Positions 19,790 through 61,190 of a DNA stretch of 64,000 nucleotides are shown here, piece after piece. Both the position numbers and the translations under genes were made by a program. Source of the DNA: Antedon bifida (taxonomy: Eukaryota; Echinodermata; Crinoidea; Comatulida; Antedonidae). Position 1 is the first letter of the stretch; every line of letters starts with the position of its first letter. The notes under the pieces were generated by a model. The model did no database searches. It was given only the letters and a program-made list of their open reading frames with translations, and had not been told where the DNA came from. The DNA is taken from NCBI GenBank assembly GCA_963402885.1, contig OY727103.1, forward strand, positions 4,440,501 to 4,504,500, read 5' to 3'.

Positions 19790-25451
<5,662 letters not shown>

Positions 25452-34333: not shown

Positions 34334-35633
34334 CTAGACTAGATATTTACCTTTAATAGACTGGTTTACCCCTGTTACACTTGTAAACGACAAGGTAACT
34401 TCTGTTGAAGGATTGTTTGGCACTTTCTTGGCTTTCACCATTTCCACATCGTTGTCGACGTATTCTAGATAGCTGTCGGGGCTCACTGAATACCATGTTG
34501 TTCCGTAATCATCACTTCTCATAAGAATATGACCGCTTTGATCCACTCCGTATATTTCTCGAGTTGAATTTATGATAGCTATAACATTTGCAATATTATC
34601 ATCGATAGCTAAGAAATAAAGAAAAAAAAGTCTTAACACGAGTTGTAAATATAAACCCACATCATGTCAGGGCGTGAAAAAAATGTTTTCGAAAATTATT
34701 TTTTATTGTCAGTTTTGGAAGAATACAAAAGTATTAAATTCCTTTTCCTGATGCTAAAACAAGTAATAACAATTTATTCTGTAGGCCTACAGAGATCAAT
34801 TAATTTTGGAAACCCCCTGCATCATTCTACTAAACCATTTTTGTTGGTGAGATTTTATTTTATCATTGAAATGAGCAGTGTTCTACTTTTTGTAATTTAA
34901 AAAAATGAGCAACCAATCGGAGCTAATAATTTCGGCGATTTGCTCCTGTTTTGGTAAAATGTTAAAAAATGTTTTCTTTTGGAAAATGAGAAATTGATTT
35001 ATGGTGGGAAAATAGACTCTTAAAGTTATACTGTAGTAATTTTGTTTAGTTTAGCAGTCCCTGACCAATTCATCTTTGTATATTTTACATTTTGGTTTGT
35101 TGGTCAAATGAATTGAAATTAAATATTACCATCCCATGCCATTCCATTGTCATCGGAATAACTACAGAGATGAGGTCCACTGAAAATAGAATATGTGATA
35201 TTTTATTAAGTGAATACTTTCAGCAGCTTAGTGTGTTCTAAATTGATTCATAACGACAATTGAAGCAAACAATTACAATTTATGCCAGTATGAGCTAGGT
35301 AAGACTTTTCACATACACTGATCTTATACATAGGCTTGTTTTTTTGTATAAAGTTTCGAAATGCCTAGATTGCTAGTTTTAACCTTTTATCCTACTGATA
35401 ATCAAAACCTGTTTTCTTTATGTACTACTATTGGTGCAGCAGGTTAGTTTGGTTATTAAGTCGCAAGATTTGAATTTGGGTTGCGGTCGTTAAAAATGAA
35501 TATAATATAAAACAATTCACAGTGAAAATATTAAATTAAATAGAATGTACGTACTCAATGTATGACAAAACACAGACAAATATTCTTCCAGATAGTGGAT
35601 CAACAATCACGCCTCTGTCGTATTCAGTAAAAA
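34334..35633 (-). other. C-terminal tail with two Asp-box (BNR) motifs
   Basis: Exons 35555-35633, 35130-35179 and 34334-34608 encode two S-x-D-x-G-x-x-W motifs, SDDNGMAW and SDDYGTTW, 38 residues apart. The surrounding sequence (GVIVDPLSGRIFVCV; REIYGVDQSGHILMRS) is typical of beta-propeller blades of the sortilin/sialidase type. Only about two blades are present, so a full propeller is not encoded. Confidence 0.7.
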
Positions 35634-38600: not shown

Positions 38601-41600
38601 GTTTCAATCGTAATGTAGTTAGGAAGTTGAAGGTTTAAAAAAACTCCAAACGCATGCGCAGATGATGTGTCGCTATGCACGATGGCTGTGTTAACAGTCA
38701 GCAGATCTCTGAAAGAAACCAAAATAGGAAGCTATTTTGGTGACGTCATGAAAACAAACCATTGTGTACATTTGTCACCATCAAGAAAACATTTGAAATA
38801 TACTGAGCTTTACATCAAAAACTTTTCTAGACTAGTAAAATGTTAATGTAAACCAGTTACTGTATCAGGTCCGGAATGCTGTTTCAGAATCCAACCTGCT
38901 ATGCTTGTGGTTGTGAATTCCATGTATTTTTGTCTTTTTTTTAAATTTTCAAACATTTATTTCTGGGAAAAAATTTGTATCTAGCTGCCTTTATGTATTT
39001 ATTTCTGGTCTTATTGTATTTTTCGTGATTGTGTGAATGGAATTTGCTCACCACTGTATTATTATTTCACGATACTGACGAAAAATAACTTTATACCCGG
39101 AGCTACCCTTTAAACAAACAAAAATTGTTACCCTGGATTGATATCCTGTGGATCGTATTCTGGGACGTCAATATCAAGCACAAGTTCGGGTCTTTCGGAA
39201 CCAGTCTTGTTGACTTCGATAGTCTGTGACAACGGCTGACCATCACCGTTAAACTCGACGCTAACATCAAACATTTGCTCATTGCTTAATTCGTAATTAT
39301 CGGCCAATTGAATTTCAACATCAATTAGAATTGCATCGTCATCGGGCTTTCGCTCCTCAAATTGATATCTGTGTGACGAAACTGTCGAATAAAAATGGAA
39401 TACTAATCAATTTTGTATAAAACAATTAAACTTGTGATCACAAATTATATACAGTTGCCTACTATTTATCTATAGTTACGTCACCAACACATGAGCTTTC
39501 ATGCTAATTATAGTTTTTGTGGCAGAGTTATATATGAAAATTAGTGTAGTAATACACCCCCCACCCCCACCCCAACACCCAAGTGACCTATCTGATCTTT
39601 GGTGATCTATTATATTCCTATAGATATAAATCGTATATGTTACTGTAGCACACATTTTACCTCTTATTTACTTCATATTACAGTGACAATACAACTGTAG
39701 GGCTGTTATAAATTAGCATTAAAATACTAAATACAAATATTACACACTGCAGAGTATGGGTCCTACTAAACACCACACAACACTACAGAATAGCACCACA
39801 TGCGCCTAACCACAGACGCTAATGCGCGTTAGTAGGCCTACGCAACCCCTAAGTAATCAGCCTTAAATCAAACTGAACCTAACCCTCTAAATGTTCCCTA
39901 AGTACTAACTATTGTATAGCAATGTGTGATGTGTTGTAGGGTGTGGTGTTGACTCTTACTCTTGTATGCACAAGTAAAAACTTACAAGAATTGCTAATGA
40001 TTCCTAAATTAATCGTTACGGAATCTTTTTGACTTGTGCTGTGAGTTGACCCATATGTTAAATCCAACTCGTAAAAACGACCGCATGGGTAATTTTTGCC
40101 AACGTGCTGAATTGTGACGTTTGTAATTGTTAAGTATGCTTCACCACTGGTATCTCCCGACACTGATGAAAAAGTAACTTCTGCACTCATTCTTCTGGTG
40201 ACTTGAGATATACTGATGTTGACGGTAAAGTTCTGCTTTTGGCCTATGGTGTAGATATCTGGATTCGACTGCATGTGCGTGTCGTTTTCATGTGGTCCAA
40301 GAAATGCATATATTGGATCTAATGCATACGTCTGTAAGATAAACGATAACTCAGGCACTTTATCTAACGATAAAGTGTAGTAGGCTATAGACTTTGTCTT
40401 AAGCTATGTGTACACTATCAAACTTTAATGGCAAAATATGTGATGTGCCCATATATGGACATGATGATGTCATATCACTACCATAATAATTTAACCATAT
40501 CACTACTATATTTGGGCCCATCACACTGTTTTAGTCAAACTAATTTGATAGTGTATAGGCCTACAGAGCTTTACGTTTGTTTCCAACTATTCAAATTTAT
40601 TACTGAATTTTTATTATTATTTAATTGAAAGCTTATTCCTAGTTCAACCTTCCAAATCCGTTTCTGTGACAAATTCTAAATAGTTTTTCTCTTGTCAGTG
40701 CAATTAGTTAAAATAGTTTCTACTTTTTGTAATTTGTCAATCATCAGAGCTTTGGTCGAGTTCACATGGCTTTAGGCCTATAGACTACTACTTCATTTGC
40801 ATTATAGCAGGGTAGGAACTATAAGCTATGTATGAGGGAGTTGTAAAAATGTTGTACTGTAGCCTACCCCCAGAGGTTCTTGAACATTAAATGTCAATTG
40901 TTGAGTTGGTTTCTCAACACCGTCAATGGCGAGAGTTGCAGCAACGTTTACTGAAGTTGCGTCAGTGTCTGCCTCCACTCTGTAAATCACCTCAAATTGA
41001 ACCTAAAAAATAAGAAAGACGCATAAGATAAGCGCTCCATTCTAGATCTCGGTACGGCATCTAGGGTTATGTAAGAAAGTATAATTTGTTTGTTAGTTTT
41101 TATATAGAAATGCAAATGAAAGATAATATACATACCATATTGGCATCTTGGTTAAAGTCTTCATTGACCCATTCCATGTTTGTAATAACTCCAGCATCTA
41201 GAGTTGCAATATCATCATAAACACCAGGAACTGTCGTGTTATACACAGTTGTCAACATACTGCCGTTCACACACGGTATGTTGAAGCCAGCGTAACGAAG
41301 ATTTACTTGACATACGGTTGCAACTCCGCTAACCCCACTCACGTCCAAACGATAACTTTTAAGCGATTTAAATGGAATATGGACATCAAAAGAGTATTCA
41401 GCAATGCCTCCTTTACTGACTGTAACTATTGGGTAAACTTCAGAAAAACTTAGCAAAGGTTCCAGGCCCTAAAATAAAAATAACATTAATATTTTTTAAA
41501 TATGAACAAAATTACTATGAAATAATTTATTATTATACTTTGATAGTTTCGCCTACTGCCATTATTGATATATGTTTGATCATAACTAACTCCACAAAGA

Positions 41601-44600
41601 CCGGCTGGATTACCAAACACTTTGGGAATAGGAATAGAGTAATGAATAACTCTAAAAATGATAAAGACACGTTTTTCATAATGTTTTAAACTCACATCAT
41701 AAGTTGTTGGAGGCCCACTATTAAAGGTAATATTTCTTGATGTTGACCATAGATGGGTTTGACCAGTCCTCACAGTGACATCAAACGACTGTGCGTCTAC
41801 CTGCTCGTCAAGTCTAACTACAATCTGAGACACCAGGTAGTTGTCCTCTCCATTGGTTATAGGAGATACTCCTGAAGATAATGAAGCGATATTACAGATT
41901 AATAAGTATTTAGAAATAACCAAATAAGATAGATACGATTAAATAGATTAAGGTTAGATGGATTATATTGAAGAAGTTTAGATAAGGGATAAGGTAGAAA
42001 TATATTAGATCAGGGATTATTAGATAGATTGAGATTTGAAACAAGGCCATATACATGGCTGCAATCGCGTGCGCAAATTTGAGTTTACCGACCGACATAG
42101 TGAGTTATAGAGTTATAATAATAATAGTTTCTGTTGAAAAAAAACTAAACCATATTTATTATCACTGTCCTGTTCTCAAGTAAACATGTTTAAAAATACT
42201 ATTTATCGCTTTATGCTGATGAACAACACTAAAATGTATATAAGAAAAAAAAAGATTTTAGTATGTTTTCACTAACCTGAATTCCTCACAATTCCAAGAT
42301 CTAAAAAGGCACGATCCACCAACCGGTCATTCTCGTATGAATAGTAGTTTGCCTTGTAATCCTTAAAACACGGAAGATTCCTGCCGGATCTTGAACTTAA
42401 AATATCCGCTCTACAGACAGATAATGTATTGTTTTCGGCAATAACGTCAATGAGATACTTTGAAACAGAATTTGTTGGGGTGTAGATAACCATAGTGTAA
42501 ACTGCTGTTTCGCCTACCACCAAGGCGGAGACACGACCGTCGTCTAAATTCAACTCAAATTGTGGCTCTTCGTTGTCCTGAAAAAATTAAATGTACTATA
42601 TAAGCTCTTTAGTAATTGCAAAAACAATGGAAATAAATGATGTTATGAATAGAGTATAACGACTATACCAAATTCGGTTGTAAGGAACACCCCTACTAAG
42701 AGGACATTTTGTTTGTTCTGAATAGTATATTGTTGTATTCTCAAGAAGATGTATTTTCTATTCTTCTCCTTGGTATTTTATCGATCATCATGTTTATTTC
42801 TTAAAGCTAGCTTGGTTCTCAAAGAAAACCTACCTCTGTAAATTCTGGATCAGTTAAGTTGACCTCGTATGACATCTGTTTGGTAACCACCTCTTGTCCA
42901 TACGTAAAATTAACAGATACGTTGTAAATATCACCGTCGTTAATATCTGGATGATCTTTCAGTTTCATGTGCACTTCAAACACGATTTTATTATCGTTGG
43001 GATCTGTTGGTTCGGGTTCGTATACCGGATTTGTAAAAGGACCCGAAGAGACAACCATGAAACTGGTTGTTTCATTAGGATATTCCACTAGTATAGAATT
43101 ATGTCCATCGAAACACGGAAATGACCCTCCCACGCTATTAACACGGAATTCACACCTTTCAAACAGAGATTCTTCGCTAGATTCCGGAACGCCAATTTCA
43201 AATGTAAACGGGTAAAACGAGGTAGCAGAAGGCACAGTCAAATCCATGTTGAAAGACAGGCCAGAATTCTTGTAAATGTAATTATCACTAGCTCGGTTAA
43301 TAAGTTCTAAGGTTGGTATCTGAAAAATGAAAAGTTATGAATATAATATTATTATTAATATTATAATATTCTTAAGCGTGATTTCCACTATGACGCAACG
43401 AATGGACTTACGCGTAATGTAATTAATTTAATAATAAGCAACTGATGTAATTTTCATGCGATGAAAGGAGAAACGGTCATACAAACAAATAAAACTGTCA
43501 TTGAATGAATCGAAAACCTTGTTGCATAGAACCCACTGTCCCCGCAAGCCTCTTCTTGAAATTAAACTTTGATATACTTTAATAAAAAACTACTACTAAA
43601 AACACTGCTCTCAGCTTTGAATTAATTTAGTAATTTTGATAACTTCTAGGCTTATTGTAAAAAGAAAATGTTGATGTTGATGCGTGCGACTTTTCGATTC
43701 AACATCTGTGTTTTAAATGATTGGCCACCATGCTCATTGGCTAATAGTTGTGATGTCATCATTTTTCTTGATGTGTTTTGACACTCGTATGATCTTGGAA
43801 AACCCACTTAAACAGGCATTTTGTGTGATTGAATCTTTCTGCTTAGGTAATATATATTTCGTATATATTTGCGTGTTATTATTAATATTATTATCTTCTT
43901 TTTCCTATATGTCCACAATTGGCCTACATTTCTGTAGAATGTATTTGAAAACTCTGAAGCTAATGATAATTTAATTAATGCTACCTTGGTGTCATCATTG
44001 GCATAATTTTGAGGCATAGACTGTGAACCTGTGAGATCAACCGTGGCAGTCCATAGAACTTCAGCTGTTGCTGCAGTTGAATACGTTACACCTGACGTCA
44101 CTGTGTATTGATTTCCGTCGACCGCAGATTCGGACATTTTTGCAACAACTCTGATCTTGACCGTGCTGTCGGACACCTCTGATCTTCGGCCAATGTTTGT
44201 AATTCGTCCAAAATCAAATGTTACTGTATCTCCCTATAATGAAAGAAAAACTAATATATCTTGGCTCAACGCAAAGACAACGCAAGTGAGTTGACCAATG
44301 GCAAACGACAGTTTAAATAGTCCATCGCTTGTGATTGGTCATCATTTACGTTCGTTACGTCATTGTGTTGCCGCTCTAGTAGGAACCAAGTGTTTAATAG
44401 GCTGGAGATAGAAAAGGGTAGAGTTGGCAGGTGCATACCCTTCTCCTGCTCACAGGTTTCTTTTTATTATAGTGTCAAATACCAGCCTTTCTTTTTTTAC
44501 CTCTTCATTATATGTTGGAGAAACCACTCCCTCGCATGGATAATTATGACCGATAAAGTATACTTCAGCACTGCATATGGTCATGATTGAGTCCGAGTCC

Positions 44601-47600
44601 ATGGCAACCTCAACACTAAGTTCAGTTGTTGCTGTTTCTGGCAGGGCAAAGGTCAATATGAGACCAACGTGTCCTCCAATTATGATATCATTGCCATCGG
44701 CTGCGAAGAAACTGAAGCTTGGGTCATCCGCCTAAAAAAAAAGTTTTTGAATTTTCAGATTTTTGGAACAAACAATCTAAAATTAGAAATTTTAAAGATT
44801 AGAAAAACTTTATTTTACTCCAATTCAGATTTGAACTTTTCTCTTTTGCTTCATATGCAGACAGCCTGTAATTTAGATTCCAGAACACTAGGCTTTCATG
44901 TTATTATACTCTCTCATTGTGTTCAGGTGGGGCACTGCAGCACTAAATAAAATACTGTACAGTATTTATATATTATAAACTTACAAGCGTAATTGGCTTT
45001 TGTGTTAAAGCCGTCACAGAGTATTTGTTGGAATGAATGTATTCTTTGTCCACGGTCAATGATACACCGATCCAGTACGATTTAGTGTCGACTATTTCAC
45101 TACTGTCTGTTAGGTGTATGGCAATCTGCACTCTGATTGTGTCCTGTGTATCGTTGTTACTCCCGCCTCTTGAACGTTTTCCTAAAATACATATCGCAAA
45201 TATGAATTATATGCAAAGAACCCCTATTAAGCAGATACATACATACATACTCTCCATAAAATAGGTGTATAGGGATTTGGCTGAGGTTTTAGATATATAC
45301 TGCACAACTGTATTTCCGGTGATTTTACAGGAAATTGTCTGCTTAATAGGGTTGTCGTCTGAATAAGACTTTTGGTACTAATCCCTGGAATGTATGAAAG
45401 GCAAGATAAAACTATACAAGTTCAGTAGAACATTACAATAGCCTTTGGATCATGTCAAAACTATTCTTCAACAATCTGTATAATTTAAGGATGTATATTG
45501 CAAACCTTTTAGGCAGTCACTGCAATGAGCAGTGTGTATGATTATCCCAAGCAAATCTTGCTAAATAATTCCTTTATCGGGTTAAAGAGTAAACAAAATG
45601 TAGTTACTGCAGTAACTGCTGTAGAATAATGTTGGCATGGTCCTTAAGCAGACGTGCATACCTACCTGCATTTGTTATACTGCCAAACACATATGATGCA
45701 GATGCATTGAACTCTGATGACGTATTGGAGTTACTTTCAAAACGTGCCAAATCCTTTGCCATGCAGTCATAGCTTTCACCTGTAGCAAAGTAAAATGTAT
45801 TTGTCAATTGCTTCCTTGCTTTGTCAGAACCGAAAGTCCATTGTTTGACTACAACATATTGACCTAAGACGACCTAGGCCAATATACGACTTTCGCTCTC
45901 TGCGTGGGAAATCATTTATTGCAGGCGATGATTGTACAGTACATTCTATAGTCCGTATGAGGTATGTTGTTATCCAATGAGAAGCGTTCTAATATAGACA
46001 TTCGGTTTCTATCTTTATTGAGACCGCAGCACAGAAAGTACATTTACCATGATGATGTTCAACCTACCGTATGATCCAACACTCATAGAGGCAAAGCTCA
46101 TGACTGGTTCAGTTTCTGATTCTGCCATGACATCTAAACGGATATCGGAACCATACTCTGGGAGTACCATGTCGGTGTAAAATAAAGCACATGTATCTTT
46201 GTATATTTCGTTTGGTCCAGAGATGGAAATAACCGACTCTGATGAAGAGGTCTAAAAATAAAAGAATAATAATTAAATAAATGTATTGTTTCAAGATTCT
46301 TAATATCAAGTCTCCTGAATTATATTTTACTATTGTACTGTATATAGTAGGTCATGTGTATATGGCAAACATTTTCGATAAAATAAATTAAGTCAATCTC
46401 CAAAGCCTATTTCCACTACGCAAATTGAAAACATCAGCATAAGTATACGCATGCGTATTCGTATTGCTATCTTCCAATTACATTTCTGCTATAAATTCTA
46501 ATTCCTCGAGTTTTTTCATTCGGCGAAATTATAGTTTTTGCTTTTGCAAAGTGACGCAACCAATCTGAACTCAGGAAATAAGTTGTCATGTACGATCAAA
46601 ATGAAAATCGCAGTTATTTGGATTCGCTTGACTAAATTCACCTAGTGGAAAACCGACTTAGTTATTAAACTTAGGCCTATTAGTATTTGGTAGATACATT
46701 ACCCATGTATCGCGATCTATAGAAGCAGTGAATGCGATTTGCGCAATCCAGATGTCATCGTTGTAAGTAGCGCCAGCCACCACGTCATAGGTTTGACCAT
46801 CCTGTGTTGCATTATTGTTTGCAAGTATTACCGCGTAGTCGATGACGATTTTACTTGCGTCACTCGCAGAAGTGACCCCGCTGTGTGATATGCTCCCAAA
46901 GTCAATAACAGCCCGGTCCCACTGTAAAAAAAACCCAGTTTATTTTGTTTAACATAGCATGTATATGATTAACTAGAAAAGATGGTTAAAATGACGTAAA
47001 TAGGGTAGAGACTAAGCAAAATGTAGTTAGGCTTACTGCAGTAACTGCAGTAAGATTAACATTTACTTTAACAATTAAGCTCATGCATCACTGATATTAA
47101 CACAAATTACTGTTTTGCCAACATTCGAATTATATTATAATCATTATTTTCTTTCACTAAAAACTAAATTTTCTAAATTATCAATGCTATAGTATTTACG
47201 TTGAGTATACTCGTCGCATTTTATGTGTTCATGCATAGTTTTTGATATAAGGACATGATCCGACGTCACAAGTTATCATTCTCACAACCGAAAGTTCATT
47301 GTTTGACTACAAAACATTGGCCTAAGACGACGTAGACCAGTGTACGACTTTCGCTCTCTGCGGGGGAAATCATTAATTGCAGGCGATGATTCATCAATGC
47401 TATAGTATTTACGTTGAGTACTGTATACTCATTGCATTTTATCTGTTCATACTCGTTTTTGTACTTTTTGAAATAAGAACATGGTTCGACGTCACATTTT
47501 ATCATTCTATATATCGCCTTTTGATAAGTAGTATTTCATCAGGCTTGATACTTTACCTATTTAGATAGTATTTCAAATTTGGTATATGTTTGAATAATAA

Positions 47601-50600
47601 TACAATCTTACTCTCTTGTCTCCGTTTTTAGCGTCTAAAGTGACAACAGTCTCAGCAACAGATCCATCATAGTTACTACCAACGTGTGTAATGGTTGGAT
47701 CACAAATAGTAAAAATGGCTGACGATTCGTATGGAGTGAGAAGCTCAACGACCAAGTCAAATGTCTCTGCTGGTAACCAAATCGAAAGTTTCATTGGAAC
47801 TTTTTGTCCAATTTTCAAAGTGGTGACGCCTGTAAACGAATCAAGCTTTTCTACCAAAAATACTGGTGAGGAAGGCGTCGCTGTTGGCTATAAGAAGAAA
47901 AAGATGTTTTATTGAAAGTCAGAATTAATCGATAAAGTAAGTATAGTAAATCCAAACAATGATAACAGTGAGTGTGTAAGCGATTGTGTGAAATAAATAA
48001 ATAGAAAAATGATTGTTATTGCAAAACACAATATTAAATATCCATTGCTATATACCGCAATAATAGTAATACGGTGATAATGCAATACAATGGCACACAC
48101 GCAACGCAAGCGAATTGACCAATGACAAGCGACTGTTCGAATAATCCATCACTTGTGATTGGTCAAAACGTTGCTCTTACGGCTAATGTGAATATTATAT
48201 TAACATTAACCACACAGTCGCCTAATTTGCGTATATTTTATCTTTGTGTGAAAAACTCAAACAAAATTGTACGTACAACTGCTGAACGTCTCTGTCTAGA
48301 GTGAACTTCTGGACTGCTAATCACTACATCTACTGTTGATGATAGCTGTGTGTCCGCACTTCTAACGTGTCTCGTAGTGTGAATCGGATTTCTTGCCGAG
48401 ATCTTTAAAGTTCGCTCGATATCATAGACATCGTCTGGGAGATCCTGTGTGTATCTGACCACACCCGTGGTTTGGTCTATGTCAAACATGTTATCGTCAT
48501 TTCCCTCTTCGATTGCGTACAGCACGGTTGAACAATGGCACGAATTCTTGTCCAGACATTTATCTGCGTCGAGGTCCAATGCATTCAGAGTGGTCACATG
48601 GTTGCCGGTCTTTTCACTCAAAGCAACTTCAATCTTGTTGCGTGTGAACACGGGTGTATGTAAGTTCTCTATTCAGTAAATGAGAAATAAAATATACTTG
48701 TTTTTTTTCAATAGCTGAATCAGACTAAAGATTAGCTATTAAAGCTAGAGTGGCCAGTCCTCGTAGCATTGAGTGGGTTTTACAAATGAGATATTATTAT
48801 AGACATAGGTTTTACTAGAGATATTATCGAGCAGGTATTAAATTATTGATTATTTTGGCCATTGATTAAAAGTCAGCATGTAGGCTAGATATTACGGTAA
48901 AATCCTACCGGGAATGTTGCAGGTTTCTCCGGTCCAACAATGGGAACAATCACATTCTCCTGTCGCATTGTTACAAGTTCCGTGAAAGCATTCAACTTCA
49001 TTAATTCTGTTGATAACAGAAAGAAAAAAACAACTTTACACAAGGGGATCTTTATCACAGATGCTATTCCTATTATTGAGGTTTTGTTCTGCCAATACTA
49101 CATGATAAACAAAATTAAAAAGAAATGTTATGCAAGTGGCATCGTTGTTTTTTATAGTATGACACGCCCACAAATAACTTTACACAGGGGATCTTTATCA
49201 CAGATGCTATTCCTCTAATTGAGGTTTTGCTCTGCCAATACTACACGATAAACAAATTAAAAAGAAATGTTATGCAAGTGGCATCGTTGTTTTTTTTAGT
49301 ATGACACGCCCACAGATACTTTTTCTGGTGACAGCATACGATAAAAGAAAATCAAAACGAAACGAAACATAAGTGGCATCTTGCTTTTATTCATCATATT
49401 GTAGCTAAAACATGTCTTCTTTGGTTTAAATTCTTTTGTTGATAAAGTATAAAGAAAACATACTGTTTTAAAGAATTTTCGATTCTAAGTGTTTCTGTTT
49501 TCAGATGAATTGACTACATCTTAACATATATCATTTTAGGCAGAAAGAATAAAATATTATAAGATTATAAGATTGAAAAAGACTTTTCTTTTGTTTATTA
49601 TTCAACAACCTACCCCAAAATGTACAGGATATCAAAATACAACTTATATTAAATATATGTTGATCAATATTCTAATTATCTTATTCTGTTGTTATAATAT
49701 TGTATTACATTTATTTGATAATATTTTGATCTTGATTTTTTTAGATATCCCATCGTTATTACTGATTAAATTCATGTTTTAAACTTACTCTGAACACATT
49801 GACAGTCCGCATCGTTTAAAAACTTTATGAGTACACGTCGTCGGTATCACAGAAAGATTTTCCTCTGAAATATAAAATATAAAATAAATTGTTAAACCAT
49901 AGACAGAAATGGTTGAAGAATGTAAAGATCTCCCTTCTATTATATTTGTAAACTTATGTTTTAGAAGTATTTGCAACAGCATTTTGTAGTATAGGTTGTA
50001 TAAGGTGATTTGGCTTAATATAGTAGAAAAAAATATAGAAAAAGGAAATACTTTAAAATCAATCATAAACGTTAAATAACTCTCACTGCTTTTCCTAGTT
50101 CCAATTATTAGACAATTTCTTTATTTTTAGAAAGTGACATTTTAGGTAAAGTTAAGTTCAGTTTAAAATACTATTTCTAATTTAGATTACAATCATTAGA
50201 AAATGAACTTACTGATTTCATCAACTACAAATACTACTTTATGATTTAGATTACAATGATTAGAAAACGATCTTACCGATTTCATCAACTACAAATACTA
50301 CTTTTTGATTTAGATTACAATCATTAGAAAATGAACTTACTAATTTCATCAACTACAAATACTACTTTATGATTTAGATTACAATGATTAGAAAACGATC
50401 TTACCGATTTCATCAACTACAAATACTACTTTCTGATTTAGATTACAATGATTAGAAAATGAACTTAATGATTTCATCAACTGTAAATACTATTTCTGAT
50501 TTAGATTACAATGATTAGAAAATAAACATACCGATTTCATCAACTGAACTACAAATACTTTATGATTTTAGATTACAGTGTTTAGAAAATGAACTTACTG

Positions 50601-50844
50601 ATTTCATCAAAATACTGTATCTGGTTTAGAATACAGTGATTAGAAAATGAACTTAATGATTTCATCAACTATAAATACTACTTTCTGATTCAGATTACAA
50701 TGGTTAGAAAATGATCTTACCACTTCAGACAACAAATAATTCCTTTCTGGTTTTCTTAACTTACATTTATTAAAACATAAACTTACCAATTTCCTGAGTT
50801 TGTGCAAAAACGACACTGAAAAGTATCAAGTAAAGTCGCAGCAT
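34334..50844 (-). CDS. Large secreted mosaic protein: EGF, cadherin-like, seven ~160-aa modules, DUF11-like, F5/8C, Asp-boxes
   Basis: Exons (high to low): 50787-50844, optional 21-nt microexons, 49789-49864, 48909-49006, 48277-48668, 47612-47887, 46703-46921, 46068-46251, 45666-45779, 44985-45181, 44501-44731, 43985-44233, 42834-43319, 42277-42577, 41696-41871, 41136-41468, 40868-41002, 39986-40331, 39132-39381, 38537-38708, 37947-38163, 37632-37774, 36869-37012, 36486-36639, 35742-35765, 35555-35633, 35130-35179, 34334-34608. All junctions keep phase, giving about 1792 aa. Residues 1-14 are a signal peptide (MLRLYLILFSVVFA). Then follow a Cys-rich/EGF unit, a cadherin-like segment, RQRR at 202-205, repeat modules 209-1503, discoidin 1504-1644 and a tail with two Asp-boxes. 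No membrane segment is seen, so it is probably extracellular matrix or an adhesive secreted protein. The stop at 34334 has AATAAA at 34296-34301 (minus) just beyond it. I know no named protein with this order. Confidence 0.85.
35742..36639 (-). other. End of the discoidin domain and a 24-nt microexon of the secreted protein
   Basis: Exon 36486-36639 ends the F5/8C fold with VYGC (Cys1644). The next exon is only 24 nt (35742-35765; codes CLSDGPT) with strong CATTTTACAG and GTAAGTT sites, phase 1 on both sides. It sits beyond a 720-bp intron filled by a SINE. Confidence 0.75.
35823..36250 (+). mobile_element. tRNA-derived SINE-like element with inverted outer ends
   Basis: 35955-36035 resembles a tRNA promoter: TTTGGTGTAATGGTTATG as A-box and GCTGGTTCAAGTCTC as B-box, but no cloverleaf could be drawn. 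Downstream is a body ending ACAGACAGACAGACACACAA, then CCTCCTTGGCGGAGGTAATT. The outer ends ACCTCCGCC (about 35845) and GGCGGAGGT (about 36238) are inverted. The CTTGGCGGAGGTAAT end is, to my knowledge, a common marine-invertebrate repeat. A 93-codon minus frame across it is repeat-derived. Confidence 0.7.
36486..37774 (-). other. F5/8 type C (discoidin) domain exons
   Basis: Exons 37632-37774, 36869-37012 and 36486-36639 encode about 140 residues. They open with C1505 and VTASSSFDGTNDAQQGL, continue with GWIPALRDYEKEYIQV, VTGIKMFLCGD and FTVAYSPEFVTWVDYKE, and end DAIAVRVHPK...FDVYGC. This is the canonical discoidin pattern with Cys at both ends. In the family it binds phospholipid, glycan or collagen. 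Confidence 0.85.
37947..38708 (-). other. DUF11-like repeat of the secreted protein
   Basis: Exons 38537-38708 and 37947-38163. GDLLTVNTAIVHSDTSSAHA followed by FGVFLNLQLPNYI matches the DUF11-type pattern (GD-hydrophobic-T.....H...S.A.A....L...LP). The family attribution is by eye. It forms the bridge between the repeat modules and the discoidin domain. Confidence 0.55.
38262..38370. repeat. Inverted-repeat element, family F (copy 1)
   Basis: Contains ACCAATCACAGGCGACAGTT and CCATCACGTTATGATTGGTC, forming inverted CCAAT/ATTGG ends. Copies at 44268-44350 and 48090-48180 share CGACAGTT/CGACTGTT and AATAATCCATCAC or AATAGTCCATCGC. All three are in introns of the secreted-protein gene. Confidence 0.7.
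40402..40570. mobile_element. MITE family 1, complete intronic copy
   Basis: Left end AGCTATGTGTACACTATCAA; right end TTTGATAGTGTATAGGCCTA then CAGAGCT, so the right end carries an extra AGGCCT-containing stretch. Interior GTGATGTGCCCATATATGG and GGGCCCATCACAC. It lies in the intron between exons 41002 and 40331. Confidence 0.85.
42040..42110. repeat. Dispersed repeat, family D (copy 2)
   Basis: ACAAGGCCATATACATGGCT followed by GCAATCGCGTGCGC and TTTACCGACCGACATAGTGA. Intronic. Matches 29158-29240 and 51973-52055. Confidence 0.8.
44268..44350. repeat. Inverted-repeat element, family F (copy 2)
   Basis: GTTGACCAATGGCAAACGAC and CATCGCTTGTGATTGGTCAT. Intronic, between exons 44501 and 44233. 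Confidence 0.7.
45218..45372. repeat. Inverted-repeat element, family B (copy), with ACAT microsatellite
   Basis: AACCCCTATTAAGCAGATAC at the left and GTCTGCTTAATAGGGTTGTC at the right are inverted; a short ACATACATACATAC run follows the left end. It lies in the intron between exons 45666 and 45181. Confidence 0.65.
45827..45929. repeat. Dispersed repeat, family E (copy 1)
   Basis: AACCGAAAGTCCATTGTTTG, then CGACTTTCGCTCTCTGCGTG and TTGCAGGCGATGATT. The partner copy is at 47285-47392. CGAAAGT and ACTTTCG inside are mutually inverted. Confidence 0.8.
47285..47392. repeat. Dispersed repeat, family E (copy 2)
   Basis: AACCGAAAGTTCATTGTTTG ... CGACTTTCGCTCTCTGCGGG ... TTGCAGGCGATGATT. Flanked on both sides by ATCAATGCTATAGTATTTAC (about 47180 and 47394), a direct repeat that suggests a local duplication of the flank together with the insertion. 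Confidence 0.8.
48090..48180. repeat. Inverted-repeat element, family F (copy 3)
   Basis: CGCAACGCAAGCGAATTGAC, CAATGACAAGCGACTGTTCG and CATCACTTGTGATTGGTCAA. Intronic, between exons 48277 and 47887. Confidence 0.75.
48277..49006 (-). other. EGF-like and cadherin-like exons with furin-type site
   Basis: Exon 48909-49006 encodes an EGF-like unit (CFHGTCNN...CDCSHCWTGETC). Exon 48277-48668 encodes a cadherin-like segment: TPVFTRNKIEVALSE, LDLDADK, MFDIDQTTGVVRYTQDL, YDIERTLKISARN. Calcium-site residues are only partly conserved (the DLDAD stretch is clear). The exon ends HSRQRRSAV, an R-x-R-R proprotein convertase consensus at residues 202-205. Confidence 0.8.
49030..49375. repeat. Tandem duplication, ~143-bp unit, two copies plus part of a third
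   Basis: The block starting ACTTTACACAAGGGGATCTT and ending TATGACACGCCCAC recurs about 143 bp later, with a partial third copy. It is intronic, directly upstream (in transcript order) of the EGF exon. Confidence 0.9.
50170..50740 (-). repeat. 64-bp tandem array with candidate 21-nt microexons
   Basis: Nine units in the first intron of the secreted-protein gene. Units at 50213-50233, 50277-50297, 50341-50361 and 50405-50425 are exactly 64 bp apart. On the minus strand each has AG, 21 nt (TATTTGTAGTTGATGAAATC plus G or A), then GTAAG. The 21 nt is phase 1 on both sides and would add V-F-V-V-D-E-I (or a variant) after QTQEI. Units at 50469 and about 50657 lost the donor (GT to TT). The one at 50532-50557 has a 5-nt insertion, the one at 50599-50614 is shortened, and the one nearest exon 1 (50721-50738) lost its acceptor. 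Donor contexts alternate (GTAAGTTC, GTAAGATC). Confidence 0.85.
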
Positions 50845-52534
50845 TTTCTTGCTAAGCGTTTTCAAATGTAAGTAAAGTTCGAAGATATTAACTGTCTTCT
50901 GTTACAACTGAAATTTCATCTTCAAAAGTGAAGCCATGAGAAAGTCGACATCTGTTGCAAGACTTTATAAATATATCAATAATTGGTATTGATCGCAATA
51001 AATTAGTTTTTTAAATTCATAAAGACTAACACAGTTAATATGCTGCTGCATGACAACTAATATTGATAAAACTTGTATGCTATTGGTGTAATTGATTTTT
51101 CTTAACGAATTAAGTATTCATAGCCATAGAATAACCAATATATAGATGTTTGACGTAAACAATGAATGGTCGATCACCATTCACTTGTTATTATTTAATA
51201 AGATGTTAAACTTGCATAATAAGTATTGCCTACCTGTGGGTCTATTGTTAGGAATCTTCCACTTTCTGAAAGGGTAAATTAATTTTGTTGTTAAAATATT
51301 GATTTTTTTTATATAACAATATTAAATGAGAATATTATTAAGAAGGAACAATAGAAATTATATTGTGCAAACATTTATATTTTCTACTTTATTTTAAAAT
51401 ACAGTATACATTATAATACAGTATTTATTTTAAAAATATTGATTTTGTATCCAAGTACAAATATCATTAAGTTGCTAAAGTATAAATAGTATTGAACACT
51501 ATACAATTGTTAATTAATAAGTATGTTAATTAGAATGTTGCATTGTTATCGAATTTTTTAATGTTTTGTTATGGCTTAATAAATAGAAGAACAGACATCC
51601 ATCTAAACAAAATGTATTTAAAATACGTTTCAATATTTATTCGCCCACTTCATGCTACTTGTATATTGAATTGCCTCAGAGGCAAGATAACAACAAAATG
51701 TTGTCCTTTTTACAATTTTTTTTTTTTTTTGGAACTTGGATAAGTGAAAAAATATCGGGAGAATTTATGAAAGAATTATCGCCAAACATCAAGAGAGGGT
51801 GTTATGAAGATTAGGAATCAAACTACAAGGGGAGCGTTCACAAAATAATATTAGACATAATATTAGGAGGCCTGTCTTGACGACCGTATCGTGCAGTTCC
51901 GATGGAAAATTAAATAATTCTTTTAATTTTTTTTACTGATTACCGCCAATAGGAGAACAAAATGTTAATATTTAAACAAGGCCATATACCTGGCTGCAGT
52001 CGCGTGCTAAAATAGTGTTTACAAACCAACCGACCAACATAGTCAGCTGTAGAGAGACTAAAAATAGGGAGGGGTATGTGTAATTTTTTTTTCTTTGAAA
52101 ATACTTCTTTATGCTATCAAATAGGCCTGGAGAATAAATAAGTGACCATTCTGAATATGCGTAGTAATTATTTTCCACCAATCACCATTTTCGCAACCTT
52201 ACCTCCCAATATTTGACAGTTATATAATTATTTTTATTGAGTATTGTAAGATGTTTTACACTAAATGCACGGTATGTGTTCCATAGTTGCCAGTAAATAT
52301 TGAAGGCACTCTTGGCGCGCCATGCTGCATTTTTTCTATATAGCGCCGCCTATCGATAATTGAGACATAATTGTTTTTAACCATACGCCGCATGCAACGC
52401 GAGACGGGCAGCACCATCCTGGTCGTCGGCGACAGATGTAATTTTTCTCCGGAGGATCCTAACCCATATGCCTAGCTAGGCCTAGGTATTAGGCCTAACG
52501 AATAGTAGTTCTGTTTGAAAAAAACAACTAAATA
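50845..52534. promoter_or_regulatory. Divergent promoter interval, secreted gene(-)/Myb-SANT gene(+)
   Basis: 1.7 kb between start codons. It contains family D repeat at 51973-52055. A GC-rich stretch at about 52310-52470 (TTGGCGCGCCATG; TATAGCGCCGCCTATCG; CGACAGATG) is the likely core promoter of the plus-strand gene. Nothing coding is seen. Confidence 0.5.
51973..52055. repeat. Dispersed repeat, family D (copy 3)
   Basis: ACAAGGCCATATACCTGGCT, GCAGTCGCGTGC and GTTTACAAACCAACCGACCA. Same family as 29158 and 42040. Confidence 0.75.
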
Positions 52535-54953
52535 ATGTTGAAAGCAATACGAGGAAACAACTGGACTGACAGAGAAGTAAAAGAATTGATAGAACTATGG
52601 AAAGATCCAGATCTGAGAAAGGAAATAGATTCAAATAAGAGATGTAAATTGGACACTTGGTATGAAATTGCAACACGGCTTGCCAACTTGGGATACCCAA
52701 CACGAAGTGGACCACAAATCCACAATAAAATCAATGATCTCAGAAGATCATATCAGAGAGCTAAAGTTGAATTAAATGATGGCTCAGATCGTATAGTGGT
52801 AATGAGACAATATCCTTTTTATGAGATGCTAAAGAAGGTGATTGTTGACAAGAAACAAGCTCAATCAGAAGGAGGAGGAGAGAACAGTTTCATGAGTGGA
52901 ATTGAATGCGATGGTCAAGATGATGGTAAGCGTGTAAACTCCCCAGCCCAGTCCATATTGAGTGTCATAAGAACCTATCTTGAACTAAGTCTAGACCTAT
53001 TCAGTAATAATTAAGGCATACTAGGCCTAGGTTTTGTTTAGTCCCAAAAATATATACAGTACAGTAGTTTTTCAATAGGCCTAGCTAGGCCTACCGCGGC
53101 CTACCGCGGCCTACCTAGGTTACCCAGTATAAATAAATAACAAATTATAAACTTAAATGAAACGTAGTTTGTACTGCAAAGTATATTTATTATAATATTC
53201 TGATTTTTTAATATGGATAGGAATTTATGTTGGAAAGTTAAGTACCATAATTTTTTGTCATATATATAGGCTAAGGCCTGAGCTTTAGCTGTAGTTATTG
53301 TGATTGTCGCAAATTATAATATAAATTGTTTTATGTTTTTGTATTTATTTTTCAGATTCAAGTATTGACGAAACTCTGCTGGATGATACAAACAGTTCAA
53401 ATTCAATAAGTAAGGACATAGAGTTATATTGATTTGTGTTACTGAAATAGTACTGATATTGATTGGTGATCATATGCCATTTTTAAAGTGTGATCTAACT
53501 GGGTGGAGACATACATGACATGACATGCCTTACAACCTAGCTGCTGTGTGTGTATTTGCATGGGATTAAAATCTGGGGATGGGAGATGAAAGTTTACCAT
53601 ATTTCCTGTCCAAAAAGAATTCCCTGTATCTTAAACTGGTTCGAGACATACACGGCATACCATGCCTTACAACCGAACCTAGCCGCTGAATGTGTATGTG
53701 CATGGGATTATAATCTGGGGGGATGAGAGATGAAAGTTTACCAAATTTCCTGCCCAAAAAAAATTCCCTGTAGCTTAAACAGGCCTCAACATCTTTGCGT
53801 TTCCAACCACTGGAGGATTGAATGATTGATGTTGATGATACTGATGCTAATGTGAGAAATTGTTGATGATGTGACAACTTTTCGATGATGTGACAATAAA
53901 TGGTCGTGGTGATTATGTTGGTGACAAAATGAGGTGGTTATGTAATGTGCATATGACACTTGTCATAAAATGATTTATGCTATTACCAATGTTGAATTTT
54001 GTCACCCCTTTCTCTGTTAGACTTTGCACTTAGCGATGATGACTATACTCCAAATAAAGATGGAGAAACAAGTGGTGTAGGAAATACAGAAAGTAAACAG
54101 TTTCAAGAAAACACTTATGAAGGTATTTTTATATCTACTTTTGAATTGTTTTAAATTTGGCATGTAATCAACTGGTCCAATTTGAAAAGATTTTATTTAT
54201 TTTAAATAAAATAGTGTCAGTTTCACAAATCCTTATGTTGTACATAAAGTACATTCCAACCAATTTATTAATAGAGGGCTCACTTCACAATTTCCCATCT
54301 GTCACAATTTGTTTTTCCTTTGGAGGCATCTTGTTAGATTTTTGTATAAATTGTTACAAATTATGATTTAATATTGAGTAATTATTTTTTTTAATTTAGC
54401 TGTGGTTAAAAACAAATGTTTATTTGCTTGTAGATGTGATAAACCAAGGGAATGATGAAGAACCACATCAAGCAAAATGTTCAGAATCTAGTCAACAGTC
54501 TAGATCAGGTATAATTAATTCTACTTTGAGAGGCCACTCTCTAACTTCTATCAATGTTGTGTTCATTGGATGTGGTAACAAAATTATCAAAGTATCTAGA
54601 GATGTGGTACTGTACCGAAGCTCTTCTGACTTGTCGAATTATTAATTCATTCTTAATTTACAGGTAAAAAGCGACAGCGTGTGAGCCTGAAAGACCGAAC
54701 AGTAGAAGCGCTTGCAAAGAAAATGAAAGATATAACGGCCGAATCTGATAAGAAATTCTTAATGATTGAAGAGAAGCGAAGGAGAGAGGATTTGGAACAA
54801 CGAAGAGAGGATAGAAAGTGTATGATGAAAATGATGGAATTAATAAAAGATTCAATGGAAGAGAGGAAACAAGCTGACGAGAGGAGACGAAAAGATTTTG
54901 AAGCATTGATGGAGGTTTTAGGTCAAAGTTCATCATCGTCATCCAAGAGCTAG
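52535..54953 (+). CDS. Myb/SANT-like DNA-binding domain protein, 5 exons, complete
   Basis: Exons 52535-52925, 53356-53409, 54021-54122, 54434-54508 and 54664-54953 (TAG) give 303 aa; all four introns are phase 1 GT-AG. Residues about 7-95 form a Myb/SANT-like trihelix domain (NNWTDREVKELIELW; CKLDTWYEIATRLANLGYP; SGPQIHNKINDLRRSYQRAK), placed by eye in the MSANTD group. The middle exons encode acidic, Ser/Asn-rich linker. The last exon starts GKKRQRVSLKDR (basic, nuclear-signal-like) and continues as a Glu/Arg/Lys-rich probable coiled coil, ending in a Ser run. This layout, trihelix plus C-terminal coiled coil, is usual for MSANTD proteins and for Harbinger-type transposon Myb proteins. No transposase neighbour is seen, so it is probably a host gene. 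Likely a nuclear DNA-binding protein. Confidence 0.93.
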
Positions 54954-57885
54954 CATTTGTATATATTTATTTCAATTGTAGAAACATAAATAGACATACA
55001 CTATGGGGTTCGTTTTAGGATGAGGGCTTATTGATTTCAACCAGTTGTTGTTCAGTCATGCCAAATTGAGGTTAAAACATGATTTCAAAAGACTACCACG
55101 AATGGTCAGCGGTTGCTTTCATTTCAAGGAGAAGGTGTATATATACCCCAAGTGGGCTAGTGAGGATTAAATCAGTTCTTTTAGCTATTGGTATGCATGT
55201 ACAATACTTTGTAAAAAAATTAAATTCAAGTACATTTTTATTATTTGTGTATGCTTAATTATTATATCAGATATTTAAGATAAAATATATAATATGCTTT
55301 ACAATGTACGCATTTTTGTGGTGGTTTGTTTGCTCAATATAGTAATATATATAGTAATCAGGGAGTTGCAACTCGCTGATGTAACCAGGGAAGAGTGCTC
55401 TTCCCTGATGTAACTAACAATAACATTCCAGGAGCGCTAATTGGTCAATTACCCTCTTCCAATATTTGAGCTACTAATAAAACGTGTCTCATCAAATTAA
55501 CTAATTGATAGTATTAGTAAATTCTTTTTTGTTATCAAATTTCATTTTGGAATTTGTATATAGTAGGCCCAAGTTTGTTTCTTAGACGAAGAGAAGCGGT
55601 AGACCTACGCCAATTTCTGTATGACGGTATATCTTTGAAGTACGCCCTCAATATTTGTCATAGGCATTTATTTCATAACATAGCAGTGTATTTTTGCTTT
55701 GTTTCTTTCAATGACATTTTTTTACACAATTTGCAGCTTTATATAATGTCATCTTAGTCATTTATTTATTGTCGTTTTTCCTAGTGTTTTCAATATGTTT
55801 TAAACAGTACATAATCCCATGTTTATAACATACAATGATACATTCTATTTAAAGAGCCGAGGGGATTATGAATTAAAATCGTTCACTGTATGCGACACAG
55901 TTTTTAAGTAGATCGACCATTGATACGGGGCGCCGTTCGGGACATTGCAGCATCAGATGGCTGGTAATGAGTAATTCATGCGATGATGAAATATGTTGGC
56001 TTGTTAAAAATAATTGAGTGAGTTGTTTTATAAACTATGGCTTAGTGAGTCATGTTGTCCATCACCAATGATATAACCGATTCTTTTGGGCTATATACTG
56101 TTCGTCTCATTTGTCCAGTTGTTTTTACCTCAGCCCCCCCCCCCCCCGTTTTGACTATAACAAGTACACTTTTAGTGTTATTTTATATTTATTTTGTTTC
56201 TATTGTTATTTGTTGGTTTTTTCGATGTTGTTGTTGTATTTTCTATTAAGTTTCACATTATTTAACCTTTCTTCTACATAACAAATGAAATAGGGTTATA
56301 AAAGTACAAAATACTGTAGTAAAAAATAATTTACCCAAACATTTTACCACAGAAATGAGTCATTTCTATTATTGTATATAAAACACCATTCACTGGTAGT
56401 AACAGAACAGTAGTAATGACTCGGATACAAATTTGCGTAATTCAACGAAGAGTGGATTAATCAGAGAAAAGTGAAAAAAAAAGTTTTTATATTTATACTA
56501 AATGATGAAATATTTTTAGATAATCGTTAATAACCTTCACAGACGATATTTTGTTCGTATTTTTTTACGCATATAGATAAATTTAATAGTAAATTGGCAC
56601 TGCACTTTTTTTTTATCAGTGGCACACTTGTGAAGGTGCGTCCAAAGAAACAAAATTGAAAACAAAGAAGAAAAATACAAAAATGGAAATGTACATTAAC
56701 TACTTAAACGAACATCACAACAAGTTACAACTAACAAACAAAGGAATATAGTGCGGAAAAAAAGTAAATAAATATACAAAAAATATATAAAAATGCATAT
56801 AAAAAATAGTAATAATAAACAAAATAATAATAAGATATCAATTAATAAATATAAATTACAAAATGAAATATACACAATATATAGCAATGTGGAATCCACA
56901 GCAATGGAGAATACTGTACTCAGATATTTTTAAGGAGAAATTTTGTATATTATTTTCTTTCAATTAAACGAATTAGATCTGAAATCTACATAACACAGAT
57001 CACGAACAATAGACTCTTCGAGGCCCTTGGTATGAACCACTGACAATGCTATAGTTACCAATAAGCTATTACAAGTGGCATCTGTTGTGATAGTCTTTTG
57101 TTATTCGAATTTATTTCAGAACGGCCTTGGTAAAGTCAGTTTATCTGCTCTAATAATGGTAGCGATCTAGAATATTAGCATAGAGTAAAGTAACAGTTAA
57201 AAGGCATGTATTGTGATATTTTAACAAAAGGCAATCCTCCTTGCTGTGTGACCCCTGTTTAGTGTTCTAGTCCTGGTGTGTTGTTTTACTGATTATAAAT
57301 ATGGTTGTGTGCTCTGTAATAATGCTACCGGTGAAATGATGGTAAAAGCAATTCTGTTTCCAAACAATCTCAACATTTAATGAAAAATACACATTTTTGA
57401 TAATCCATTCAACATTGCTAATTTGTAGTCATTTCAAACTAAAGTGTTTCTTTATATTATAAACTTGTATTAATAATTGTAATTACTTAAATTACTTACT
57501 GAATTATTTACTTAAATTATTTACTTAAAAGTAATGATCATTTAGTATATGTATTATATGAATTTGGGAAATTTAAAGTTAAAGTTTGACATTGAAAAAA
57601 TGACCAAAACATTTTAAAAATAAAATGTAAACTTATATCCAGTATTGGATCCTATAGTCCTAACAGCGTTAAATTGTATTAGGATTTCCCATGTTATTAT
57701 TTTTTTTCATTGTTGCTCATTTGATGAATAGGAACAAATGTCGAGTGCAATCCAACTTAACTTACGCACTTTATTTTTGTGTCTCAATAAATGTTTGGGT
57801 GTGGTTAAATTACATTTCTTTAGTATTAATATCATTTTTATATGATTATTGATTTGAATCTGTTGTTAATATGATATATCTTAAA
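54954..57885. other. Intergenic, AT-rich; no supported gene
   Basis: Possible poly(A) signal for the Myb/SANT gene at about 55470 (AATAAA). CCAGGGAAGAG and CTCTTCCCTG at about 55387-55410 form a near-perfect palindrome. A run of 14 C lies at about 56137-56150. Short open frames at 55554, 56052 and 56696 are low-complexity. Confidence 0.6.
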
Positions 57886-57889
57886 CAAA

Positions 57890-58560
57890 TATCATTTGGT
57901 TATTATAATCATCATTATTATTATCAATCGCATATTATTTATTATCAATATCAGTGTTTAGGAATAACGTTATACCAGGGAAGTTTGAAGTTACATTTTT
58001 ACAGTAATGTTATTATTTTATATCTTTAAAAATATTATTTGGTTATTATAATCATTATTATTATCAATCGCATTTTGTTTTATTATCAGTGTTTAGGAAT
58101 AACGTTATACCAGGGAAGTTTGAAGTTACATTTTTACAGTAATGTTATTATTTTATATCTTTAAAAATATTATTTGGTTATTATAATCATTATTATTATC
58201 AATCGCATTTTGTTTTATTATCAGTGTTTAGGAATAACGTTATACCAGGGAAGTTTGAAGTTACATTTTTACAGTAATGTTATTATTTTATATCTTTAAA
58301 AATATTATTTGGTTATTATAATCATTATTATTATCAATCGCATATTGTTTTATTATCAGTGTTTAGGAATAACGTTATACCAGGGTAGAGGTAAGTTACA
58401 TTTTTACAGTAATGTTATTATTTTATATCTTTAAAAATATTATTTGGTTATTATAATCATTATTATTATCAATCGCATATTGTTTTATTATCAGTGTTTA
58501 GGAATAACGTTATACCAGGGTAGAGGTAAGTTACATTTTTAGAGTAATTTTACTCTTCCC
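57890..58560. repeat. 135-bp tandem array, five units
   Basis: GGAATAACGTTATACCAGGG recurs at 57961, 58096, 58231, 58366 and 58501, exactly 135 bp apart. Each unit also has TTATTATTATCAATCGCAT and TTACAGTAATGTTATTATTT. The last two units share CCAGGGTAGAGGTAAG where the first three have CCAGGGAAGTTTGAAG, so they were homogenised separately. The array ends TTTTACTCTTCCCTGG, the inverse of CCAGGGAAGAG. Confidence 0.95.
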
Positions 58561-61190
58561 TGGTTCTATATCTACGTAATACTAATACAGTAGTAACATT
58601 TATGATTGGTTATTCCCACTGTCTCTTCCCTATGGCACGTCTCATCGATGCCATTGTCCTTCCAAACAACAAAGGAAAATTACTTTGGCGTCATGATAAT
58701 ATTTATGCTGTAACACTTTTAAAAGATTAAAAAAGTATTCCAAGCGAACATAATAAATCATTAATAATGTAAATTATGAAAACAGGCTGTTATTAAAATT
58801 CAATATACAAAAAGTGAAATTAATTTGTGATATAATTAAAAAAAAACATTGATATTTTATCTTAATTTAAATTTAGCAATTAATATATGTTAAAGTCTCT
58901 TTAAAACATAACAAGAAATATTTGAAAGCTATTATAATTCCTTAAAACAGCCACATATTTTGTATCAACATTTGTTGTATTTCAGAAGGGACCCTCTTAA
59001 AATATAAATATATGACAGAAAAAACTAACTGTAAAAATTACATAATATATAGCCTACAAATGTACACAAAATATATCTTGCATTCTTTTTAATTGATGAT
59101 TTATGTTATGTTTGTCAACTTGTCTACCCCTATTACGGAATGGTTTAACCCATGTTGAGTAGCGGCTGTTGATACAGTATGATATTATTTTCATCTTTAG
59201 GGAGTTCATCATATAACAGTAGGCCACATACAATTAATATTAATTTTATTTGTATAACACATAATGATAACAGATCTCACATTGATTACATTTTGATTTT
59301 CCTTTGTTATAATATATGTTCGTGTTCGTGAATATAATTATGTCTACTATTAGAAAACAGGACAATACATAATATAATATTGAGCTGAATTGATAATTAC
59401 ATTCAATCCCTAACTACTCTAGATTCAATCTTCAGTTACTAGAATTCAGTACCGTATACGATTACAACGAGTCTTTGATTACTAGATTCAGTCTTTCAAT
59501 ACTAGATTCAATATATGATTACTAGATTCAATCTTTGAATTTATAATTGTTTGAGACAGCTGAATGAAATTATTTTAGAAACAAGTGTCCTGATGGAAAT
59601 AATTTAGTCTCCTTCTATTCAATCCCAAGTTTAAACTAATGATGATCTTGAAATTGAATGTTTGTGTTTTTATTTTGATGGAATAAAATGTTTGAATTGA
59701 TGCGCGCAATATGAATAGTATTGCCAACCAACCAAATAATTCGAGAAAAAAGAAAGAAGATACAGTAATGTATTGGAGTGTGCTTTTATTCCTAAAATAA
59801 TAAAACAATAAACACGAAATTAAAAAATATCCAATCCGACAAAGCAGTTGTGTACAATAAATTTCATTTCTTTTTATTATCTGTTGTAAATCTTTGTTCG
59901 AACATTTTGAAAAACTCATTTAGTTTTTATTATATGTGACCTTTTAACCTTAATGATTATCATCGAACATAAATCCCTAATCATCTTTGTATTAAATCTA
60001 TGTTTTGTTCAATATTATCACGTGACTGTTGGTATTATAACACGCCCAATATTTTCTTTGTTAGACGATGCGTCATTGCTTATTTTCCATCAACAATTCA
60101 TATTTACGCAACATATTTAATTAAATGATTTGAGTTATTGCTTTAAAAAGCTATAGCACATTGGTCACATTCTTCGCATTACCAACAAAAATTATGGGGC
60201 TTTTTTTCATTAAAAAGAAACCCCACTGTTTATTCAATTTATTTTTATTTTCAATTGTAAATATTGTCAATATTAATACAGAGTTTATACTGTATTTGTT
60301 CAACTTTATTTATAGAGGGTGACCCTCATGAGTTATGATAACTGTCTGTGTGTATCATATAATATGTACTTATAGAGGAGCCTTACGTTAAATACAATGA
60401 ATTTGTTTGGTTCTTTTTAAAAATATCATTTATTGCAATATTTAAACTTCTGATAGGTATTCTGACTATGGTAGTGTACTAAATGTTTCTTTATTTTTAA
60501 ATTTAAATTAATTAGAATTAAATTTCCACGAACCCATAAACAAAATAAAAAAGACCACTGAAATTGGTTAAAAAGGACTGTGCTCTGTCTACACCATCAA
60601 ACAAAAAAGTGTGATGTTCCCAAATGTGGTAGTGATATGCCCGAATATGGTAGTGATATGCCGTAATTGGATAGTAATATGCTCAAATATGGTAGTGATA
60701 TGCCCAAATAAGAGAGTTGTATGCCCAAATATAGTAGTGATATGGCCAAATATGGTAGCGCAAGTATTAACATTTGAACAACATGTGTAAATAATGACCG
60801 ATGATTAATTACTTAAAACATAATAATAGTAAAAAGAAATTGAATGTTTCAATATAATAGATTCTATTATGATAATAATAACATTATAAAAATGAAACGT
60901 AATGATTAATTAGTACTGTACAATTCGGTTTCAATAGATAGTGCAATTTTATCTTAATTTTTATTTTTGTTTTCCATGAATTTATAGTTTGCGTCGAACT
61001 AACAACAAAAACAAGACTGAAAAACAGGTAGGCCTAAGCAGTATTATTTCTTAATGTGTTATACTTTTGTGTTTCACTTTCAATTGTTGTATTTTATAAT
61101 AACAACATGTACACTACTTTACAAATGATTGCTGTTTTCAACATTATTCCATCCATGCCTGTTACGTCATCGAGTGACATTTTTACACGC
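58561..61190. other. Intergenic, AT-rich; one degraded MITE
   Basis: A 114-codon minus frame at 59575-59919 is hydrophobic and AT-driven, with no splice or domain support, and is not called. Short ACTAGATTCA repeats lie at 59417-59535. A family 1 MITE relic lies at 60582-60770. Confidence 0.6.
60582..60770. mobile_element. MITE family 1 relic with expanded internal repeat
   Basis: Left end GCTCTGTCTACACCATCAAA. The interior then expands into about seven degenerate units of GGTAGTGATATGCCCAAATA (21-22 bp). The right terminal repeat is missing. Confidence 0.8.

Follow-up and report, generated by a model that had tools for sequence, protein, structure and literature searches.

Locus and host gene

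The 64,000-nucleotide stretch of the Antedon bifida genome analyzed here (contig OY727103.1, positions 4,440,501 to 4,504,500 of the forward strand; hereafter the window, in whose numbering all positions are given) carries on its minus strand a gene predicted to encode a large extracellular protein and, within the presumed first intron of that gene, a tandem array of short units in which a sequence resembling a 5' splice site (donor) recurs. The original prediction for this locus had read the array as a series of 21-nt microexons that would each insert seven residues just after the signal peptide. The evidence set out below points instead to a minisatellite that very probably grew out of the boundary between exon 1 and intron 1.

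A home-made gene finder traces the host gene to position 33789 and predicts 27 exons past intron 1, which range from 24 to 486 nt and include 24 of at least 76 nt. A Pfam match to the F5/8 type C domain is clear (1.8e-09), and matches to EGF-like and cadherin domains both lie under their curated cut-offs. Between the cadherin and F5/8 type C matches (33789-49864, minus strand), several domains similar to each other can be made out by eye that have no Pfam match at E 0.01.

Exon 1 is not among the exons predicted by the finder; we infer it from its hydrophobic leader and its donor, and because exon 1 is inferred, so is the intron 1 of 922 nt that it delimits. Its hydrophobicity (2.78) is the highest among 19 in-phase ATG-to-donor candidates found from 49.9 to 63.95 kb of the minus strand, with a runner-up of nearly the same value (2.73) at 62454-62415, ~12 kb further upstream, which the finder did not choose either. 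The donor of exon 1, TTG/GTAAGT, scores 8.9 bits, or 8.4 when it is itself excluded from the training set described below. The finder opened the gene with an ATG that lies within the array itself (50349), a first exon that we rejected since it is without a hydrophobic leader (0.97 versus 2.78). Exon 2 begins in phase 1, the phase in which the putative exon 1 ends, so that a 21-nt insert between them would preserve the reading frame, as originally proposed. When exon 1 is instead read through into the intron, an in-frame stop is reached after 72 nt (codon 24). An additional good donor-like site, AAT/GTAAGT, with a score of 8.4 bits, lies at 50765 (minus strand), 22 nt past the exon 1 donor.

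Features of the exon 1 to exon 2 region
Feature	Position	Strand	Remarks
Exon 1, coding part (inferred)	50787..50844	-	signal peptide MLRLYLILFSVVFA, then QTQEI plus one base; from hydrophobicity and donor score
Exon 1/intron 1 junction	50755..50798	-	in register with the array, of which it is a divergent tenth copy; repeat search, 70% over 44 nt
Nine-unit minisatellite	50181..50754	-	unit lengths from the exon 2 end: 64, 64, 64, 64, 63, 67, 58, 64, 66
Symmetric 12-nt cassette	50532..50543	-	best-scoring acceptor of a symmetric cassette (3.5 bits), donor 7.2; another AG lies a short way upstream; not in any of the four units originally singled out
Two near-identical 128-bp pairs	50174..50429	-	98% identical, the part of the array most alike; repeat search and identity table
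Claimed microexon	50405..50425	-	acceptor -7.1 bits, donor 8.0
Claimed microexon	50341..50361	-	acceptor -1.5 bits, donor 5.6
Claimed microexon	50277..50297	-	acceptor -4.0 bits, donor 8.0
Claimed microexon	50213..50233	-	acceptor -1.5 bits, donor 5.8
Exon 2	49789..49864	-	entered in phase 1, left in phase 2; acceptor score 12.0 bits

Organization of the array

The array occupies approximately 50166-50754 and consists of nine tandem units of 58 to 67 bp each; Tandem Repeats Finder (TRF) reports it at 50166-50720 with a period of 64, 8.8 copies and 83% match. Starting from the donor of exon 1, successive donors are spaced by 66, 64, 58, 67, 63, 64, 64, 64 and 64 nt, and all nine unit donors, with the lost ones counted by their place, are in register with that of exon 1. 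The GT is retained in seven of the nine units, whose donors score 5.6-9.9 bits (exon 1, 8.9), the highest score belonging to the unit nearest exon 1. The two units that have lost it have their donor places at 50469 and 50657. The AG located 21 nt upstream of the donor is lost in three units (50532, 50599 and 50721), and in two of these (50532 and 50599) the length within the 21 nt has changed as well. Divergence is greatest in the unit nearest exon 1 (59-65% identity to the other eight), and among the four units nearest exon 2 alternate units are 98% identical, compared to 91-92% for the other pairings. As a description of the array the original prediction was therefore accurate: the four exactly spaced 64-bp units with AG, 21 nt and GTAAG lie where it placed them, the other five units are decayed, most strongly toward exon 1, and duplication as 128-bp pairs is borne out in the four units closest to exon 2.

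A search of the genome assembly (315.6 Mb in 27 contigs) with the array returned a single match, at its own place, a count that is a lower bound in that very common words were skipped; on this result a dispersed repeat was rejected. The array had no match to a known RNA family at the gathering threshold.

Kinship of the array and the exon 1/intron 1 junction

For a comparison of the units with the splice junction, a 52-nt stretch spanning the exon 1 donor was set against the nine-unit consensus, with the donor core (-1 to +6) left out. Outside this core 28 of 45 positions are identical; the exon side contributes 7 of its 11 and the intron side 21 of its 34. Mean identities were 13.2 for the 39 remaining inferred donors and 13.3 for the 101 other GTAAG sites in the window, with a maximum of 21 in each of these two partially overlapping control sets, and in 20,000 single-base shuffles the value of 28 was reached at a frequency of 5e-5. 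Individual units are 46-63% identical to the exon 1 copy. The units and the exon 1 junction share a common descent, and since they are homologous the donor copies in the units are inherited ones. What lies in the presumed intron 1 is a tandem array that shares both register and ancestry with the donor of the upstream exon, a relationship as secure as the putative exon 1 itself. The suggestion that the array arose from this junction is upheld as far as shared descent is concerned; that the junction came before the units is the direction of copying that we infer.

Splice sites and variation of the claimed microexons

Position weights for splice sites were trained on 40 donors and 39 acceptors hand-picked from the output of the gene finder, i.e. 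from 25 of 28 exons in the run over the host gene, 11 of 30 in a minus-strand run over 12-33 kb (RtcB plus two exons of an apparently separate gene fused to it) and 3 of 24 in a plus-strand run, together with the donor of exon 1; rows judged to be spurious, terminal or empty were not used. The acceptor model covers only positions -20 to +1, and with it the inferred acceptors score -3.4 to 14.7 bits in leave-one-out trials, with a median of 8.5.

The donors of the four claimed microexons are good ones, at percentiles 94.7 to 98.7 among 7226 GTs in the window. Their acceptors score like ordinary AGs, at percentiles 62.8, 43.5, 62.8 and 23.0 (from the exon 2 end) among 6506 in the window. The pyrimidine fraction at -20 to -5 is 0.38-0.44 in the claimed acceptors, compared to a minimum of 0.56 in the inferred ones, and a competing AG occurs within 15 nt upstream in all four of the former versus none of the 39 latter. 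The 43-nt gaps between neighboring units, which had been suspected of being too short to splice, are indeed shorter than every inferred intron, the smallest of which is 90 nt. Recursive splicing was rejected, since AGGT does not occur on the minus strand of 50166-50754.

The in-frame cassettes are also of a kind that arises readily by chance. Among 293 noncoding donor-like sites outside the array (defined by a score of 5.5 bits or more), 98 have a symmetric, open phase-1 cassette of 9-51 nt, and for 75 this falls within 9-30 nt. Each of the four claimed units offers three open symmetric cassettes, of 12, 21 and 24 nt. A length divisible by three and open in frame, with the GT and the 21-nt spacing intact, is found in four of the nine units, and because the units are copies of each other these four count as one event.

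Alignment gaps between units, whose placement depends on the alignment, are confined to the filler and the first half of the 21-nt segment; columns 23-64 are free of them. Over all nine units the number of non-modal letters per column averages 2.27 for the filler, 1.24 for the 21-nt segment, 1.44 for the donor positions (-3 to +6) and 0.42 for columns 39-64. When three units of differing length or strong divergence are excluded, variable columns among the six similar units number 2 of 11 in the filler and 4 of 9 in the donor. This variation shows no protection of the donor or the reading frame, which is weak evidence considering how few and how closely related the units are.

Origin of the array and competing explanations

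We consider it highly probable, judging from the letters of this locus, that the array is a minisatellite within the intron that began with a tandem duplication of the boundary between exon 1 and intron 1. A founding unit of ~64-66 bp would have comprised the last ~10 nt of exon 1, the 5' splice site, ~30 nt of the intron and ~20 nt of filler, and would have been duplicated repeatedly, with the latest round proceeding as 128-bp pairs at the exon 2 end. The GTAAG motifs of the units would be inherited copies of the exon 1 donor, and each "microexon" would be the stretch from a chance AG in the filler to such a copy. Exon 1 would most likely be joined directly to exon 2, with the array removed as part of the intron, and most likely nothing in the array has been selected for a function. 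Leakage of splicing to an array donor is plausible, given that seven of these donors are good and that splicing in a comparable human repeat uses the next unit's donor (see below); it would run into the stop that follows codon 24 in frame and yield an unproductive transcript.

Several observations weigh against this interpretation. Homology by itself is compatible with copying in either direction. The acceptor model is small, and the finder began with assumed acceptor weights rich in T, so that hand-picked sites and T-rich starting weights together bias the splice models against weak alternative acceptors. Two inferred acceptors score as low as -3.4 and -0.5 bits, which puts the two claimed acceptors at -1.5 inside the inferred range, and the array contains an AG (50620) with 3.0 bits, a pyrimidine fraction of 0.56 and no competing AG, at a distance from the next donor (50599) of 22 nt, which is not divisible by three. 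At -40 to -21 the pyrimidine fraction of the claimed sites is 0.60-0.65, compared to a mean of 0.50 for the 39 inferred acceptors, only 5 to 8 of which reach such values; according to a study of alternative micro-exons of the human brain, T is raised more than 20 nt upstream of these exons, and those repressed by PTBP1 have weaker splice sites (PMC4317164). Finally, variable columns among the six similar units amount to 2 of 18 in the 21-nt core once its final three bases are set aside, compared to 4 of 26 elsewhere in the spacer, so that the core is not clearly more variable than the rest of the spacer.

A tandem set of symmetric 21-nt microexons, of which one or alternate ones would be included to give a variable N-terminus after the signal peptide, is nevertheless a very improbable explanation on the sequence at hand, and inclusion of such exons in transcripts is unlikely. 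The phase and frame arithmetic is right, four units are intact, and the T-rich stretch 21-40 nt upstream of every claimed acceptor is a feature possible in regulated microexons; but the weak acceptors, their few nearby pyrimidines and competing AGs, the chance rate of comparable cassettes, the placement of the alignment gaps, and the units in which the supposed exon has changed length or lost its GT led us to abandon microexons as the principal reading, with the T-rich stretch pointing the opposite way. The resemblance to human brain micro-exons extends to size range, phase symmetry and the T-rich stretch beyond 20 nt; the human exons have RNA evidence behind them and flanking sequences that are conserved between species (PMC4317164), whereas the Antedon case is known from one sequence. 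The micro-exon genes (MEGs) of schistosomes likewise share with the claim small exons of symmetric length and a protein with a signal peptide. In MEGs very small exons constitute most of the coding region (PMC4350168), in contrast to the exon sizes of the Antedon host gene, which we accordingly do not assign to this class; the claimed microexons, moreover, have poor acceptors.

The closest known system is the variable number tandem repeat (VNTR) in intron 18 of human ABCA7 (PMC5954066). Both repeats are intronic and have units that carry a copy of a donor, the ABCA7 repeat starting at and including the donor of the preceding exon, and use of the next unit's donor in ABCA7 yields a transcript that is out of frame. 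The ABCA7 repeat has a 25-bp unit in a C-rich region, is polymorphic at ~12 to 427 copies and is backed by RNA evidence, whereas the Antedon array has nine copies of an AT-rich 64-bp unit, read in a single assembly, and an exon 1 copy that is far more diverged. By analogy, the array might serve as a series of alternative 5' splice sites, diverting some transcripts to the early stop, with the copy number tuning the output of the gene. We regard this as improbable: the seven donors compare well with that of exon 1, the best of them is the nearest to it, and the extension of exon 1 does reach a stop, but four of the nine donor columns vary among the six similar units, the donor is lost in two of nine units, and in ABCA7 it was skipping of the following exon that increased with VNTR length, while retention of a unit did not. 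The related proposal of a splice-donor VNTR, in which seven copies of near-native strength would compete with the original exon 1 donor such that the share of transcripts running to the early stop depended on copy number, is likewise given a low probability. Yet another role for the donor copies, as binding sites for the U1 small nuclear ribonucleoprotein that shield intron 1 from premature polyadenylation, would agree with the presence of several donor-like sites early in the transcript and with the suppression of intronic poly(A) sites by U1 described in PMC3826338; since nothing about it is specific to the array and the intron is short, we find it scarcely credible.

Genomic background and neighboring features

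In a background sample of 174 kb, made up of the window plus 10-kb segments of 11 large contigs, one segment per contig, 12 arrays with a period of 20-200 bp and at least three copies were found, the intron 1 array included, so that minisatellites appear to be ordinary in this genome. One other, a 135-bp minisatellite at 57864-58552 (5 copies, 95% match), shows donor-like sites on its minus strand at a rate of about one per copy, compared to at most 0.33 per copy in the remaining ten. What is special about the intron 1 array is its kinship with a splice junction, not its being a minisatellite.

Two further arrays in the window, at 22741-22789 and 60611-60758 (~38 kb apart), appear by eye to have the same 21-bp TRF consensus, rotated and on opposite strands, and perhaps represent one tandem repeat that a mobile element has dispersed. 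Adjoining the host gene, an open reading frame on the plus strand (52532-53014) encodes a Myb/SANT-like DNA-binding domain (PF13837, 5.2e-16), which we presume may derive from a Harbinger-type transposon. Two matches to the mir-29 precursor family, with starts 280 bp apart, occur on the plus strand at 10989-11056 and 11269-11336 (51.9 and 52.3 bits).

Implications

The inclusion of a splice boundary in a minisatellite would leave an intron strewn with good donor copies that can mimic an array of microexons. Such arrays can also misdirect gene finders, as happened when our own finder started the gene inside the array. If the array donors are used, the locus would be a counterpart of the ABCA7 repeat and a simple system for tests of competition between donors, and if a splice-donor VNTR were the true explanation, a minisatellite would set the dose of a large extracellular protein.

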